Assembly: GCF_000518185.1 (NCBI RefSeq)
Contig: NZ_JADC01000011.1
Location: 124,001-188,000, forward strand
Length of the DNA stretch: 64,000 bases
Direction of reading: 5' to 3'
Origin: Bartonella clarridgeiae ATCC 51734
GTDB lineage: Bacteria; Pseudomonadota; Alphaproteobacteria; Rhizobiales; Rhizobiaceae
Below the pieces are notes generated by a model. The model was not told the origin of the DNA. It saw only the letters and a program-made list of their open reading frames with translations, and ran no database searches. Shown one piece after another: positions 3,910 through 18,334 of this stretch; the first letter of the stretch is position 1; each line of letters starts with the position of its first letter. The translations under genes were made by a program, and so were the position numbers.

Positions 3910-5601
3910 ATGACCTTACCAGCAAACTCAAAAAAAACGCCCACCAAAAAAAAATCCCAATCAAATCAATCCGTAGAAAAAAAGTATCGCCTTATAATCT
4001 TGGAGGGTTCCAGTGAATTGTATCGTATTATAGCTCTTAGATCCTTCGGAGATGTAAGAGAAGGTGATATTGGTGGTGTTATTCAAAATGAAAATAATTT
4101 GTCACACAAGGGCAACTGTTGGATTTATCGAGATGCTCAGGTTACTGGAGAAGCTAAAGTTTATGACGATGCCCAAATTAGGGATGAAGTCAAAATTTAT
4201 GGAAAAGCCAAAATTTATGGAAAAGCCAAAATTTATGGAATAACCAAGGTTTATGGGAAGGCTCAAATTTTTGGCAAAGCTGAGGTTCGTGGAACAACCC
4301 AAGTTCATGGGAGTGCCAAAATTTATGGATATGCTGAGATCAATGGAAATCCGAACATTTACGATGATGCAAAGATCTATGGACATGCTCAGATTAAAGG
4401 CAGAAATAAAATTTTTGGCAACGCTCAAATTTATGAAAATTGTTTTATTAATGAAGATGCCATAATTTATGGTAATGCTGAAATTTATGGCAATGCCCAG
4501 ATTAGTGGGAAAAGTAAAGTTTATGGTAATGGTAAAGTTTATGATACTGCTAAGGTTTATGATGATGCCAGTGTTGCGGGATCGGGCTTGGTTTGTGGCA
4601 ATGCTCATGTTTACCAAAATGCCAAGATTTGGGGGGGTAAGATTAAAAAAAATGCAACAGTTTTAGGCAATGCGGAAATTTTTGGTAAATCTACGATTAC
4701 TGGAAATGCCAAAATCTCTGGTGATGCCATAATTTCTGGTTATGCTCAGATTCGTGACAATGCTCAGGTTTATGGAAACGTCAAAATTTATGAAAAAGCT
4801 AAGATTTTTCATGATGTTCATGTTAAAGATAAAGTCGAAATTTGGGGACATGCCCAAGTTTATGGTAACAGTGTAATTTCGGGTGAATCTAGAATTTATG
4901 ATTATGCTCAAGTTTATGGATACACTCAAATTTATGGTAATGCTCTGATTTTCGGGAAAGCTGTAGTTGCAGAAAGAGCTCAGATTTATGAATTTGCTAA
5001 GGTTTATGACATAGCTTTGATTACTGGAAATGCTCAGGTTTACGGAAATGCTCTCGTTTTTAACAACGCTAGAATTCGTGATAATGCCCAAGTTTATGGC
5101 AATTCTAAGATTTACGAAAAAACCGAAATTTGGGATGAAGCCAAAGTTTATGGTGATGCTAGAATTTTCGGACAATCTCAGATTTTCGGAGAAGCTAAAA
5201 TTTATGATGAAGTCAAAGTTTATGATAACGCTGCGATTACTGAAAAAGCGGAAATTTCTGGTACTGCAAAAATTTATGAAAAGGCTAGAGTTTTTGGTCA
5301 AGCTCGAGTTTTTGGCAATTCCGCAGTTTTCGGTCAAGCTCGAGTTTTTGGCAATGCTGAGATTTATGATACAAACCTTTTTAAGGATGCAGTTTTTGGC
5401 AATATGTTGAATTTTAATGAGAATACAGCTCAAACTCTTGATGAAAATACAGTTCAAACTCTTGAGGAGAACAAAGTTAAAGTTCTTAAAACTGATAACA
5501 CTGATAATTATAGAACTGCCTATGAAAATAACGATAATCTCCAAATACCTAATTCTGAAAAAAGGTGGCAGAATAGAAATAATGTGTCTATGCAGATATA
5601 A
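3910..5601 (+). CDS. YdcK-like hexapeptide-repeat beta-solenoid protein
   Basis: This 563-residue protein has three parts. Residues 1-25 are rich in K, S, T and Q. Residues 26-70 form a cap module (YRLIILEGSSELYRI, then F-G-D-V-R-E-G-D-I-G-G, then N-N-L-S-H-K-G-N-C-W) typical of YdcK-type proteins. Residues 71-497 are about seventy imperfect six-residue repeats of the form I/V-Y-G-N/K/D-A-Q/K, the pattern of a left-handed parallel beta-helix with three hexads per turn, so some 23 turns. Residues 498-563 are polar. There is no signal peptide or membrane segment. Hexapeptide enzymes normally have far shorter helices plus a catalytic histidine loop; none is evident, so a structural, binding or surface role is as likely as acyltransfer. 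It stands alone between eroded regions, and its C-terminus appears frameshifted. Confidence 0.82.
   Translation: MTLPANSKKTPTKKKSQSNQSVEKKYRLIILEGSSELYRIIALRSFGDVREGDIGGVIQNENNLSHKGNCWIYRDAQVTGEAKVYDDAQIRDEVKIYGKAKIYGKAKIYGITKVYGKAQIFGKAEVRGTTQVHGSAKIYGYAEINGNPNIYDDAKIYGHAQIKGRNKIFGNAQIYENCFINEDAIIYGNAEIYGNAQISGKSKVYGNGKVYDTAKVYDDASVAGSGLVCGNAHVYQNAKIWGGKIKKNATVLGNAEIFGKSTITGNAKISGDAIISGYAQIRDNAQVYGNVKIYEKAKIFHDVHVKDKVEIWGHAQVYGNSVISGESRIYDYAQVYGYTQIYGNALIFGKAVVAERAQIYEFAKVYDIALITGNAQVYGNALVFNNARIRDNAQVYGNSKIYEKTEIWDEAKVYGDARIFGQSQIFGEAKIYDEVKVYDNAAITEKAEISGTAKIYEKARVFGQARVFGNSAVFGQARVFGNAEIYDTNLFKDAVFGNMLNFNENTAQTLDENTVQTLEENKVKVLKTDNTDNYRTAYENNDNLQIPNSEKRWQNRNNVSMQI
4120..5400 (+). repeat. 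18-bp periodic tandem coding repeat (hexapeptide array)
   Basis: The DNA repeats with an 18-base period, each unit approximating AARRTTTATGGNAANGCY and encoding one hexad. Roughly 71 units run without interruption. Near-identical neighbours occur, for example the units around 4190-4235 and 5280-5355, which suggests expansion by slipped-strand or recombination events. Because the period is a multiple of three and lacks stop triplets on the opposite strand, long antisense frames are also open; these are by-products. Confidence 0.85.
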
Positions 5602-6702: not shown

Positions 6703-7746
6703 TTACAAATCCTTTTGGCGTTTTGCAATAATTGTCAATTCCAACAGAAGTTGGTGAATGATTGTTTCATTCAAAAGTGGGTTTTTACGACTCTCTAAAA
6801 TAGCGGATTGTATTTTTTTCATCGCATATAAAATTTGTTCCAAGTTCCAATATCTTAAAGCTTGTTCAACTTTTTTTTTTCTTTGAAAAAAAATCGGTGG
6901 TCGAGCTTGAGCAACCACTTCAAAAGAATTTTTACCTTCAATTTCCACTTGATAACGTAAAAGCTGTAACTGTTGAAAATTCCTTTGAGCTACATTCAAA
7001 ATAAAGAGAAATCTGCTGTTTATAACTACATAACGACTAAAATAAGTTTCAAAACCTGCTAAATCTCCCAGTAAAACAGCATCAATCACTTCATCTTGAG
7101 AAAGAGCGCTCACATCGCTAACGACAGCTTTTACATCCTCAAGAGCAATATGAGTTTTTTTTAAAGCATAAAGACAAAGCTTTTCCAATTCACTACGTGA
7201 TGCAAGACGATCTTCACCTATATTTTGGTGCAAACATTGACGTGCTTCCAAAGAGAGAGTTATACTGAACTCATCTAAAATCTCATCAATCAATCCATTA
7301 AGAGAATGAACGTTATCTGCATAACAAGGCAAAGCAATTGCTGTAGATGCCATTTCAATAATATTGCGTAATCCTACTCCTTTTTTTAAATCTCCCGCCT
7401 CAATTAAAATAAAACTTTTTTTCGGTGGTTCTGTTATTAAAAATTTAAGTGCTTTAAGAAAGCCTTTGTGGTTATCACCATTTGATACCCATATTAAACG
7501 ATCACCACCAAAGAGTGACAAAGTACGCGCTTCATTTCCTAATCGTGCAGGGTCTTTATCAATTTCAGCAGCATCCAAACGAACGGTTGAAAAAGGGTTT
7601 TCTATTGCCACCTGGGTGAGCTTAGCAAAACGCTGAGCACGTTCACAAACAAGACCCCGATCCGGTCCATAAATTAAAACAATAGGAAAAGAACGTGAAA
7701 AATATTTTAAAAACTGATCAACTTCATGTGCTTTCTTATGAGCCAA
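6703..7746 (-). CDS. holA: DNA polymerase III subunit delta
   Basis: HolA is the clamp-loader delta subunit that opens the beta sliding clamp during replication. The 347-residue product has the family start with VLIYGPDRGLVCERA (residues about 22-36), the P-F-S-T-V-R-L-D-A segment and the SLFGGDRLIWVSNGD segment of the N-terminal AAA-like fold, which lacks a Walker motif in this subunit. A helical collar domain follows, ending in a region rich in I, L, Q and K. Length is normal. In most relatives holA follows lptE and leuS; here the upstream 700 bases hold no gene, so holA appears to be transcribed alone. Confidence 0.93.
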   Translation of the reverse strand: MAHKKAHEVDQFLKYFSRSFPIVLIYGPDRGLVCERAQRFAKLTQVAIENPFSTVRLDAAEIDKDPARLGNEARTLSLFGGDRLIWVSNGDNHKGFLKALKFLITEPPKKSFILIEAGDLKKGVGLRNIIEMASTAIALPCYADNVHSLNGLIDEILDEFSITLSLEARQCLHQNIGEDRLASRSELEKLCLYALKKTHIALEDVKAVVSDVSALSQDEVIDAVLLGDLAGFETYFSRYVVINSRFLFILNVAQRNFQQLQLLRYQVEIEGKNSFEVVAQARPPIFFQRKKKVEQALRYWNLEQILYAMKKIQSAILESRKNPLLNETIIHQLLLELTIIAKRQKDL

Positions 7747-8459: not shown

Positions 8460-8534
8460 GCGGGTGTAGCTCAGGGGTAGAGCACAACCTTGCCAAGGTT
8501 GGGGTCGTGGGTTCGAATCCCATCGCCCGCTCCA
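8460..8534 (+). tRNA. tRNA-Gly(GCC)
   Basis: A complete cloverleaf: acceptor GCGGGTG pairs with CGCCCGC, D arm GCTC/GAGC, anticodon loop CTTGCCAAG with anticodon GCC, T arm GTGGG-TTCGAAT-CCCAT. CCA is encoded at 8532-8534. It decodes GGC and GGU. A short stem with a T run follows 50 bases downstream. Confidence 0.97.
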
Positions 8535-15852: not shown

Positions 15853-16448
15853 ATGACACAAATAAAAAATCAACTCTTATCTTGTCTTAACGGACGAGCA
15901 CTCGTGTTTGTCGGTCTCATGGATGGAGGTAAATCAGTCATCAGAAAACACGTAGCTACCATGCTTAATTTATCTTTTTATGATTCTGATCAAGAAATCG
16001 AACAAGCAGCACAAATGACAATTTCTGAATTTTTTGAAACTTATGGAGAAACAGAGTTTCGCTCTCTTGAAAAACGCATCATTTTAAAAATCCTAAAAAA
16101 GCTCTCTTATTTTAGCAACAGGCGAAGGAGCTTAAACGAAAATATCCGAAAAACCATTCATCGAAATGGGATATCAATATGGCTTAAAACAGATCTTGAT
16201 GTTCTCATTGAACGTGTTTTAAAGCGTCCCACTCGACCATTGCTTCAAAAAAAGACCCTAAAAAAATTATGCAAAAACTCATAGAGCAACGCTACCCTGT
16301 CTATGCAAAAGCAAATTTAACGATTAACAATCACAGAGAACACTGTCATACAGTAGCACAAAATGTCGTACGATCCAAACAACGCTACTTGGACCAAGAA
16401 ATAAAAGATAGGAATAACAGATATGCATATCAAAACAGTCACCGTTAA
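15853..16448 (+). pseudogene. aroK: Broken shikimate kinase
   Basis: The front (residues 1-85) is recognisably shikimate kinase but the P-loop reads GLMDGGKSVIRKH in place of G-L-M-G-A-G-K-S-T-I-G. At 16109-16135 the substrate-binding block LATGEGA appears in another frame and ends in TAA. The reading then returns to the first frame for NENIRKTIHRNG and IERVLKRPTRPLLQ. A third frame after an A-rich run (about 16245-16265) gives MQKLIEQRYPVYAKANLTI. Three or more indels therefore separate the parts. A 143-codon frame survives but lacks the conserved G-G-G-A loop and the C-terminal lid, so activity is very unlikely. It normally overlaps aroB, as the remnants still do. Confidence 0.92.
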
Positions 16449-17556
16449 ATTGGAGAAGCAATATTATGATATCATAATTGGCCCAGGTCTAATTACATAA
16501 TTAGCTTTACGAATTAAGAATTGTTTTAACGAAAAAGAGTTTTTATTCAAAACGTTTGGCTATTATCACAGATAAAAATGTCGAAGCTCTTCATTTGGAA
16601 AAACTTCAGATAGGATTAAAAGAAAACAGAATCCATACCGTTCCAATTATTATAGAAGCAGGAGAAAAATCAAAATCATTTTCGACTCTACAAACTATAA
16701 TTGATAAAATTCTCTCTTCCCGTTTAGAGAGAGGAGATAGTATTATTGCATTTGGGGGTGGTGTTATTGGTGATCTAGGAGGATTTGCTGCAAGCATAAT
16801 ACGTCGCGGCATGTATTTCATTCAGATACCGACAACATTGCTCGCACAAATTGATTCATCCATTGGAGAAAAAACTGGAATTAATAGCTATTATGGTAAA
16901 AATCTTATTGGCACCTTTTATCATCCTCAATGCGTTCTTTCTAATACTTGTACTCTTAATACATTGCCATTGCGTGAATTGCGGGTGGGCTATGAAGAAA
17001 TGATTAAATACGCCCTCATTAACCAACCTGATTTCTTTGAATGGCTTGAAAAAATTGGCACTATGTGTTTTCTAATGGCCCAACGCAAACAGAAGCTATT
17101 GCTCGTTCATGTCAATTTAAATCTGACATTGTAACTCGTGATGCACATGAAATTGGAGAACGCGCATTGCTAAATCTTGGCCATACATTTGGACACATGC
17201 TTGAAATAGCAACCGCTTACGATTCAAACCGCTTAATTCATGGTGAAAGTGTGGCTATTGGAATAATTTTAGCCCACCAATTTTCTGCTGAACTGAATTT
17301 AATAAGTTCCATACTAACGCAACGTATTGAAACACATTTTAAAGTTGTTGGTTTACCTACACAATTACAGGATATTCCAGGCAAACTTCCAGATGCTGAA
17401 ATATTAATGACTTTTATGGCACAAGATAAGAAAATCTTAAAAAATCGTTTAACTCTCATCCTAATACGTGGACTCGGTCAATCATTTATCGCAAAAAATG
17501 TTGCACCAAATACCGTTTTAAATTTTCTGAAACAAAAATTAATGAAAACGCGTTAA
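16423..17556 (+). pseudogene. aroB: Broken 3-dehydroquinate synthase
   Basis: The true start at 16423 reads MHIKTVTVKLEKQYYDIIIG and stops at a TAA about 25 codons in. A second piece (from about 16550) covers NAD-binding [15 protein letters not shown] and [20 protein letters not shown] shift near 17065-17130 leads to a third piece with the metal-binding N-L-G-H-T-F-G-H and H-G-E-S-V-A-I-G. The core domains remain legible while the frame is broken at least three times, so inactivation is fairly recent. AroB closes the ring of 3-dehydroquinate, step two of the shikimate pathway. Confidence 0.94.
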
Positions 17557-17616
17557 TAAATGTTTATAATGATTGATTAACCTCGGGGCTTTCGCTATAA
17601 AATTAAATGTGATTGG

Positions 17617-17924
17617 GTCTGCGTAGCTCAGTGGGATAGAGCACAGGATTCCTAAAGAATTGGGCACCTTCAGGAGAAATCCTAAAAGTGAATCTGCTCA
17701 AATTCGGGGAAAGCTTCACAGGAATTTGTATGTCAATCCCGAGCCAAGTCTCTTTTTAAATAAAGAGAAAGGTGTAGAGACTGAACGGGCAGCACCTAAG
17801 AAGCGTAAGCTTTAAGGTGAAGAGACAGTCCAGACCACAAACGGTTTTTCTGATAAAGCTGGCGATGAAAATCGAAGTGGTATGAATCCTGGGGTCGTAG
17901 GTTCGAATCCTGCCGTAGACGCCA
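17617..17924 (+). tRNA. tRNA-Arg(CCU) interrupted by a group I intron
   Basis: The 5' exon (17617-17653) and 3' exon (17885-17924) join to a perfect cloverleaf: acceptor GTCTGCG with CGTAGAC, D arm GCTC/GAGC, anticodon stem CAGGA/TCCTG, seven-base loop TTCCTAA with anticodon CCU, T arm GTAGG/CCTGC, discriminator G and encoded CCA. The mature tRNA would be 77 bases. Splicing after the third anticodon base (U) and before AA restores the loop; this is the only junction that obeys the U-before and G-after rule of group I introns. A self-splicing intron in tRNA-Arg(CCU) is known in Agrobacterium and some other alphaproteobacteria, so this is likely a homologue. The tRNA decodes AGG. Confidence 0.93.
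17654..17884 (+). ncRNA. Group I (IC3-like) self-splicing intron in tRNA-Arg
   Basis: The 231-base insert has the conserved group I core: CAAATTCGGGGAAA (P3/P4 side), CCCGAGCCAAG (J/P4-P5), GGTGTAGAGACTGAACGG (P3'/P7), CACCTAAG and AAGGTGAAGAGACAGTCCAG (P8 to P7'). These blocks match, in order and spacing, those of the Azoarcus tRNA-Ile intron as I remember it. The last base is G (17884). No open frame for a homing endonuclease fits in it. P1 pairing is less clear: AGGAG (17671-17675) can pair with CTTCC-type exon bases and GGG at 17662-17664 with CCU. Splicing needs free guanosine and no protein in known cases. Confidence 0.9.
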
Positions 17925-17968
17925 TCATATAAATTACAATTGTTATTTTGAATAATTAAGGAAACATT

Positions 17969-18334
17969 ATGAAAAAACTCTACTTAAGTTTATTACTATT
18001 CAACCCGATTACTGCCTTCGCTGGCTCTTTGGTCATCAATGTACCAGATGTTCCGGAACCTATGATAAAAAATGTTGTTTATCAATGTGATACTGGAGCG
18101 AATAAAGAAAAAGTTGAAGCAACCTATCTTAATGCCGGTAATATTTCGTTAGTTGATTTCAAATGGAAAGGCGAACAAATTGTCGCTGCAAATGTTATCG
18201 CTGCTTCAGGATCAAAATATGCAGGAGCGCAGTATATTTGGTGGGTATTTAAAAACGAAGTTACACTTATTGATCTTATTAATGATCCAGAAGAAAAGAA
18301 ATCTATTTTCTGTAAAGTAGAAGAAAAGAAATAA
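17969..18334 (+). CDS. MliC-family C-type lysozyme inhibitor
   Basis: A 121-residue precursor with a clear signal peptide (MKKLYLSLLLFNPITAFA, cleavage after residue 18). The mature part has the single MliC domain: YQCDTG near residue 40, the central variable strands, and the inhibitory loop region GSKYAGAQYIWWVFKNEVTL, followed by a final cysteine that would pair with Cys39. There is no lipobox cysteine, so it is a soluble periplasmic (PliC-like) form rather than the lipoprotein. It protects peptidoglycan against host lysozyme, useful for a bacterium living in blood or cells. It is 44 bases after tRNA-Arg and has its own AAGGAA ribosome site. Confidence 0.85.
   Translation: MKKLYLSLLLFNPITAFAGSLVINVPDVPEPMIKNVVYQCDTGANKEKVEATYLNAGNISLVDFKWKGEQIVAANVIAASGSKYAGAQYIWWVFKNEVTLIDLINDPEEKKSIFCKVEEKK

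Follow-up and report, generated by a model that had tools for sequence, protein, structure and literature searches.

The window analysed here, a 64-kb stretch (64,000 nucleotides) of Bartonella clarridgeiae DNA, carries on its forward strand a tRNA-Arg(CCU) gene at 17617–17924, which consists of two exons and a 231-nt insert with coordinates exact to the base (Table 1). The insertion point lies directly 3′ of the third anticodon base. With introns allowed, ARAGORN returned one tRNA-Arg(cct) of 308 nt containing a 231-nt intron from base 38, and the joined exons were recognized as a tRNA-Arg(cct) of 77 bases. An earlier note on this DNA had called the joined tRNA perfect; its length and identity stand, while the acceptor stem contains one G-U pair. 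A default ARAGORN run over the 64-kb window missed the interrupted gene, its sole call being a tRNA-Gly at 8460. The tRNA sets of Bartonella genomes can thus be undercounted, since the gene escapes the default search and is unannotated in B. bacilliformis (PMC7717549).

Table 1. Features of the interrupted tRNA-Arg(CCU) gene in the window
Feature	Position	Strand	Basis
5′ exon of tRNA-Arg(CCU), through anticodon CCU	17617..17653	+	ARAGORN; same exon border in 71/71 genus genomes
Content of 5′ exon: acceptor 5′ strand, D arm, anticodon stem 5′ strand, anticodon CCU	17617..17653	+	
Group I intron, 231 nt, last base G17884	17654..17884	+	RF00028, 67.7 bits; terminal G in 131/131
P1: exon C17651 C17652 U17653 with guide G17662–G17664; U-G at 5′ splice site	17651..17664	+	Invariant, 131/131
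P10: guide with 3′ exon	A17659 U17660 U17661 with A17885 A17886 U17887	+	Invariant, 131/131
P2 hairpin, GAAA loop	17665..17690	+	8/9 pairs changed on both sides; 94.7% of cells paired
P3	17694–17699 with 17787–17792	+	100% paired; both-sided changes in 3/6 pairs
P4, enclosed by P3	17703–17708 with 17738–17743	+	Outer pair broken in 46/131 rows
P6, enclosed by P3	17744–17745 with 17771–17772	+	
P6a, enclosed by P3	17749–17752 with 17765–17768	+	Both-sided changes in 4/4 pairs
P7, G-binding helix, pseudoknotted with P3	17779–17783 with 17826–17830	+	Invariant; 100% paired in rows with letters
P8, between the P7 strands	17793–17797 with 17815–17819	+	Both-sided changes in 4/5 pairs; 90.5% of cells paired
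P9	17834–17838 with 17877–17881	+	98.2% of cells paired
P9a	17842–17845 with 17858–17861	+	95.8% of cells paired
P9b hairpin, GAAA loop	17863–17874	+	99.8% of cells paired
3′ exon of tRNA-Arg(CCU); encoded CCA at 17922–17924	17885..17924	+	ARAGORN, genus read-out

The check proposed in the earlier note, a cmscan run, matched the group I model RF00028 at 17641–17853 on the forward strand (67.7 bits, E 5.1e-15, model positions 1–253), which is above the curated cut-off of 50 bits and confirms that note's call of a tRNA-Arg(CCU) gene split by a 231-nt group I intron. Its further claims of core blocks in order, a U before the 5′ splice site and a G at the 3′ end were likewise seen in the window copy: the P3–P7 pseudoknot is present with P4, P6 and P8 in order, and the U-G pair at the 5′ splice site and the final intron G are shared by all 131 introns aligned. 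Membership in the family typified by BbgpI, the tRNA-Arg(CCU) group I intron of B. bacilliformis, is evidenced by insertion in this tRNA right after the anticodon and by kinship with the introns of the other 70 genus genomes, to which the window intron is 68.6–96.1% identical and with which it groups in a wide tree. Across the whole genome (1,487,828 bases in 17 contigs), the intron was the single RF00028 match at E ≤ 0.001. A promoter scan of 17500–18050 gave a 10-of-12 match upstream, but two sites were found against 1.3 expected.

The helices P1, P2, P3, P4, P6, P6a, P7, P8, P9, P9a and P9b were assigned by hand on the window sequence and scored on the alignment of 131 introns, comprising 70 genus introns and 61 from elsewhere, with no more than two per genus label among the 61. 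In the assigned structure 96.7% of 6873 cells were paired, compared with 28–44% when the helices were slid by 1–3 columns. Changes on both sides were observed in 32 of 53 pairs, against a shuffled mean of 20.0, and none of 500 shuffles scored as high. P1, P7 and five of the six P4 pairs never vary and are therefore uninformative by covariation. The weakest pair was the innermost one assigned to P8, broken in 62 of the 131 rows; one P2 pair was broken in 35. In the window copy itself, the assigned core pairs are all standard and the core helices intact. Folding of the single sequence gave a z of −2.2, with three of 200 shuffles as good. Its minimum-energy structure contained P6a, P7, P8, P9a and P9b whole, five of six P4 pairs and three of nine P2 pairs, with none of P3 or P9; the centroid structure recovered P9 also. 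The loss of P3 is expected, because the folding method permits no pseudoknot.

The earlier note had considered the P1 pairing unusual, a view the alignment did not bear out. Its three pairs (C-G, C-G and U-G) are invariant in all 131 introns, and a C opposite U33 is usual in the family, being found in 70/70 Bartonella introns and in 50 of the 61 others, where G (10 introns) and A (one) make up the remainder.

The arrangement is a known one. We assign the intron to the alphaproteobacterial family of tRNA-Arg(CCU) introns, of which it is a Bartonella representative; relatives within the genus share the arrangement, which is hence real but ordinary. For BbgpI, splicing has been shown in vivo and in vitro, the intron being self-splicing; it was initially detected as a strongly expressed small RNA, and its locus is c42404-42711 (PMC7717549). 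By hand count, the copy in genome G007 lies within 2 bases of that published locus. The two introns occupy the same gene and the same site after the anticodon, have lengths of 230 nt (G007) and 231 nt, and are 83.7% identical. Whereas splicing has been demonstrated for BbgpI, for the B. clarridgeiae copy we infer it by analogy. Introns in tRNA-Arg(CCU) of Agrobacterium and other alphaproteobacteria are cited in PMC7717549 from earlier work (Reinhold-Hurek and Shub, 1992; Paquin et al., 1999). The kinship with the Agrobacterium introns asserted in the earlier note was supported; the Agrobacterium rows align and share the tRNA, the insertion site and the ATTGGG guide. The base opposite U33 differs, being G in the Agrobacterium rows L140 and L142 and C in the Bartonella rows. 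By description, the intron may also be likened to the Azoarcus tRNA-Ile intron, a small bacterial tRNA intron in a different tRNA. The latter belongs to subgroup IC3, to which tRNA group I introns are assigned, and bears tetraloops on P2 and P9. Crystal structures of the Azoarcus intron are referred to in PMC3984707, and tRNA-Leu(UAA) group I introns of cyanobacteria and plastids are described in PMC4033280.

Within Bartonella, an intron was present at the same site, with identical exon borders, in all 71 genomes searched. The RF00028 search gave a match in 70 of these; the copy in G002, lost to the stricter filter used there, was found by exon pattern, and a relaxed RF00028 search of that genome yielded four weak matches, at other places. 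Intron lengths in the genus ranged from 220 to 278 nt, and the last six bases were GGTATG in 69 of 71. The two longer introns, of 278 nt (L095, genome G063) and 253 nt (L096, genome G047), carry their extra sequence mainly in the P6a region. The nearest relative, both by sucA and by intron, was G042, with exons 98.7% and intron 96.1% identical to those of the window. In the literature searched, we found no description of this genus-wide presence, which is not proof of its absence in print.

The surroundings of the gene are also largely shared. In 67 of the 71 genomes the C-terminal part of aroB was located 46–101 nt upstream; in the other four it was not found beside the tRNA. Downstream, mliC was present in 57, the remaining 14 having downstream flanks of less than 600 nt in the data examined. 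G042 had no aroB match within 1476 nt upstream, with tRNA, intron and mliC present. At 16556–17556 of the window, aroB occurs in two overlapping frames with the N-terminal and C-terminal Pfam halves, and a shikimate kinase ORF at 15853–16284 matches its profile only in part. Both genes look broken, or else the assembly has errors.

Intron and sucA tree distances were correlated at r = 0.94, with none of 2000 permutations as high. An intron split was taken as well supported at a bootstrap of at least 95 and an SH-aLRT of at least 80, and a sucA split at an SH-aLRT of at least 95; on this basis, 11 of the 21 well-supported intron splits occurred in the sucA tree, and nine conflicted with one or more of 42 sucA splits. 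Agreement between the two trees extended to the deep splits and to the five-member lineage that includes the window (100/99). On the intron data, the sucA topology was rejected by an AU test (p 1.9e-8); the test rejected it for the host flank too (p 9.6e-59; 67 of 71 loci, the control leaving out G002, G042, G046 and G063, which are non-homologous there), so the rejection does not single out the intron. In a wide quick tree of 186 introns, from which the tRNA-Leu candidates L123 and L130 (two of 13) were left out, the 70 distinct Bartonella introns required three label changes; starred branches forced at least two of these. The tRNA-Leu intron L110 was placed on a long branch among the Bartonella introns, a position we regard as unreliable.

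Beyond the genus, 394 family genomes (eight of them Bartonella) were searched with the exact interrupted pattern, which was found in 40, including all eight Bartonella, and for an intronless tRNA with a pattern allowing up to three mismatches, which was found in 34. Since both patterns are narrow, 320 of the 394 matched neither. An RF00028 search of the same genomes gave a match in 38, and absence in it is unreliable because the same kind of search missed the G002 copy and only five candidates were scored per genome. The presence of the intron in the wider family is patchy. Among named genomes, the interrupted pattern, which demands the family's own exon and guide and so is no survey of all bacteria, was matched by at least 119 stretches, with 113 of 119 being complete genes. 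Among the matches listed, 112 of these 113 were from named Alphaproteobacteria (Acetobacterales, Hyphomicrobiales, Rhodobacterales and Rhodospirillales, 22 being Bartonellaceae), and one was from a metagenome bin titled Proteobacteria. Ten of 162 loci were without a complete gene, namely six of the 119 listed interrupted-pattern loci and four intronless loci. The exon pattern matched 13 of 26 family loci; the sequences of the other 13 were inspected visually and taken to be tRNA-Leu for the most part. In L108, L110, L111, L113, L115, L116, L118, L120, L124, L125 and L129, related group I introns follow U34 of tRNAs read as tRNA-Leu. These tRNA-Leu introns (L108–L125) resemble the Bartonella intron in core sequence but, by this reading, occupy another tRNA, with insertion following U34 and not position 36. 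One intron type would thus appear to reside in two tRNAs, at different positions of the anticodon loop.

Group I introns are excised by a standard two-step mechanism. We consider it almost certain that the window holds a BbgpI-type intron, which would be spliced by the two-step group I reaction and has probably been vertically inherited since the common ancestor of the genus. This reaction is the best explanation because the B. bacilliformis orthologue self-splices. The pre-tRNA would fold its intron into a ribozyme, in which a guanosine bound in P7 would attack at the P1 U-G pair, just 3′ of U17653. The exon 3′ end released in this way, aligned to the 3′ exon via P10, would then attack after G17884, and the exons would be joined into the 77-nt tRNA-Arg(CCU).

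The earlier note had set an old, vertically kept intron against one that moved in. The former is upheld within the genus, by the 71 genomes, the shared neighbours and the distance correlation; the picture in the wider family is the patchy one given above. A recent arrival in B. clarridgeiae was rejected. It is rather unlikely that the intron entered Bartonella lineages repeatedly, or was spread among them by recombination or homing, such that its fixity reflects repeated spread. The supported conflicts between intron and sucA trees, the AU rejection and the label changes in the wide tree speak for such movement, as do the patchy presence in the family and the related tRNA-Leu introns, which suggest that this intron type changed its tRNA at some time. 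Yet conflict with sucA is just as strong for the host flank as for the intron, the distances correlate, the deep splits and the five-member lineage agree, and the neighbours are the same. Nor is there room for the usual endonuclease in introns of this size: judged by length, no homing-endonuclease gene was found in the 231-nt window intron, and the longest stop-free stretch among all 71 introns is 77 codons. Taken together, the occupation of the same site in 71 of 71 genomes, the aroB neighbour in 67 and the correlation of 0.94 argue for vertical retention, the reading best supported within the genus; the region may also have undergone recombination.

Could the intron instead be a dying relic, its core degenerate, the tRNA not made and AGG decoded by the UCU tRNA? 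The small genome (1.49 Mb), the neighbouring aroB split over two frames and a tRNA-Arg(UCU) gene encoded elsewhere in the genome (L039) would fit such decay. We judge it very improbable, as the standard core pairs of the window copy and the retention of the intron in every genus genome stand against it, together with the close identity of exons and intron to those of G042, which keeps both though no aroB match was found upstream. Finally, a chance resemblance or an unrelated insertion in the tRNA, for which nothing was found in favour, is effectively ruled out by the E-value, the covariation and the conservation.

As to decoding, all 37 tRNA matches in the genome were decoded in a search for a second CCU tRNA and none carried a CCU anticodon; a search with the exon-1 pattern, allowing three mismatches at most, found it once in the genome, with no second copy. 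The earlier note had named a second intact tRNA-Arg(CCU) gene together with a degenerate core as grounds for abandoning its call, and neither was found. It had also stated that AGG decoding would fail without splicing. Across 33 window ORFs (33 of the 35 of at least 250 aa, 4663–5544 and 6703–7746 being left out), 19 of 12,972 codons are AGG. A tRNA-Arg(UCU) is able to read AGG by wobble, and because such a tRNA is present, the claimed failure is not established.

A single-copy group I intron lacking an evident endonuclease has thus been kept in every genome searched of a host-restricted genus, which raises the question of why it was not lost under genome reduction. A long shot is that a regulatory role has evolved for the guanosine-dependent splicing step or for the intron RNA once freed, such as coupling the supply of tRNA-Arg(CCU) to nucleotide status. 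The idea arises because one site is occupied in all 71 genomes though several of them are small, aroB is broken in the window and was not found adjacent to the tRNA in four more, and other genera of the family have an intronless tRNA; a use of the freed RNA is brought to mind by the discovery of the B. bacilliformis intron as an abundant small RNA (PMC7717549).

No phage record matched. When the window tRNA was compared by blastn with 72,556 plasmid records, 1263 matched, none over 80% of the query. Two of the 1263, both resistance plasmids, were examined, and each contained an unannotated split tRNA near aac(3)-IId: plasmid pCTX-M3 (NC_004464.2) at 2448–2746 (L357) and LR890662.1 at 1963–2259 (L358). 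The insert in both is a group I-like intron of 219–221 nt, for which RF00028 remained below its cut-off. ARAGORN labels the tRNA as tRNA-Stop(tta); by likeness to L123 and other loci, we read it as a probable tRNA-Leu(UAA). Over 472 nt, the pCTX-M3 stretch shares 87.5% identity with L123, a locus in a genome of the window's own family, and this identity suggests that the resistance segment may have come from an alphaproteobacterium.
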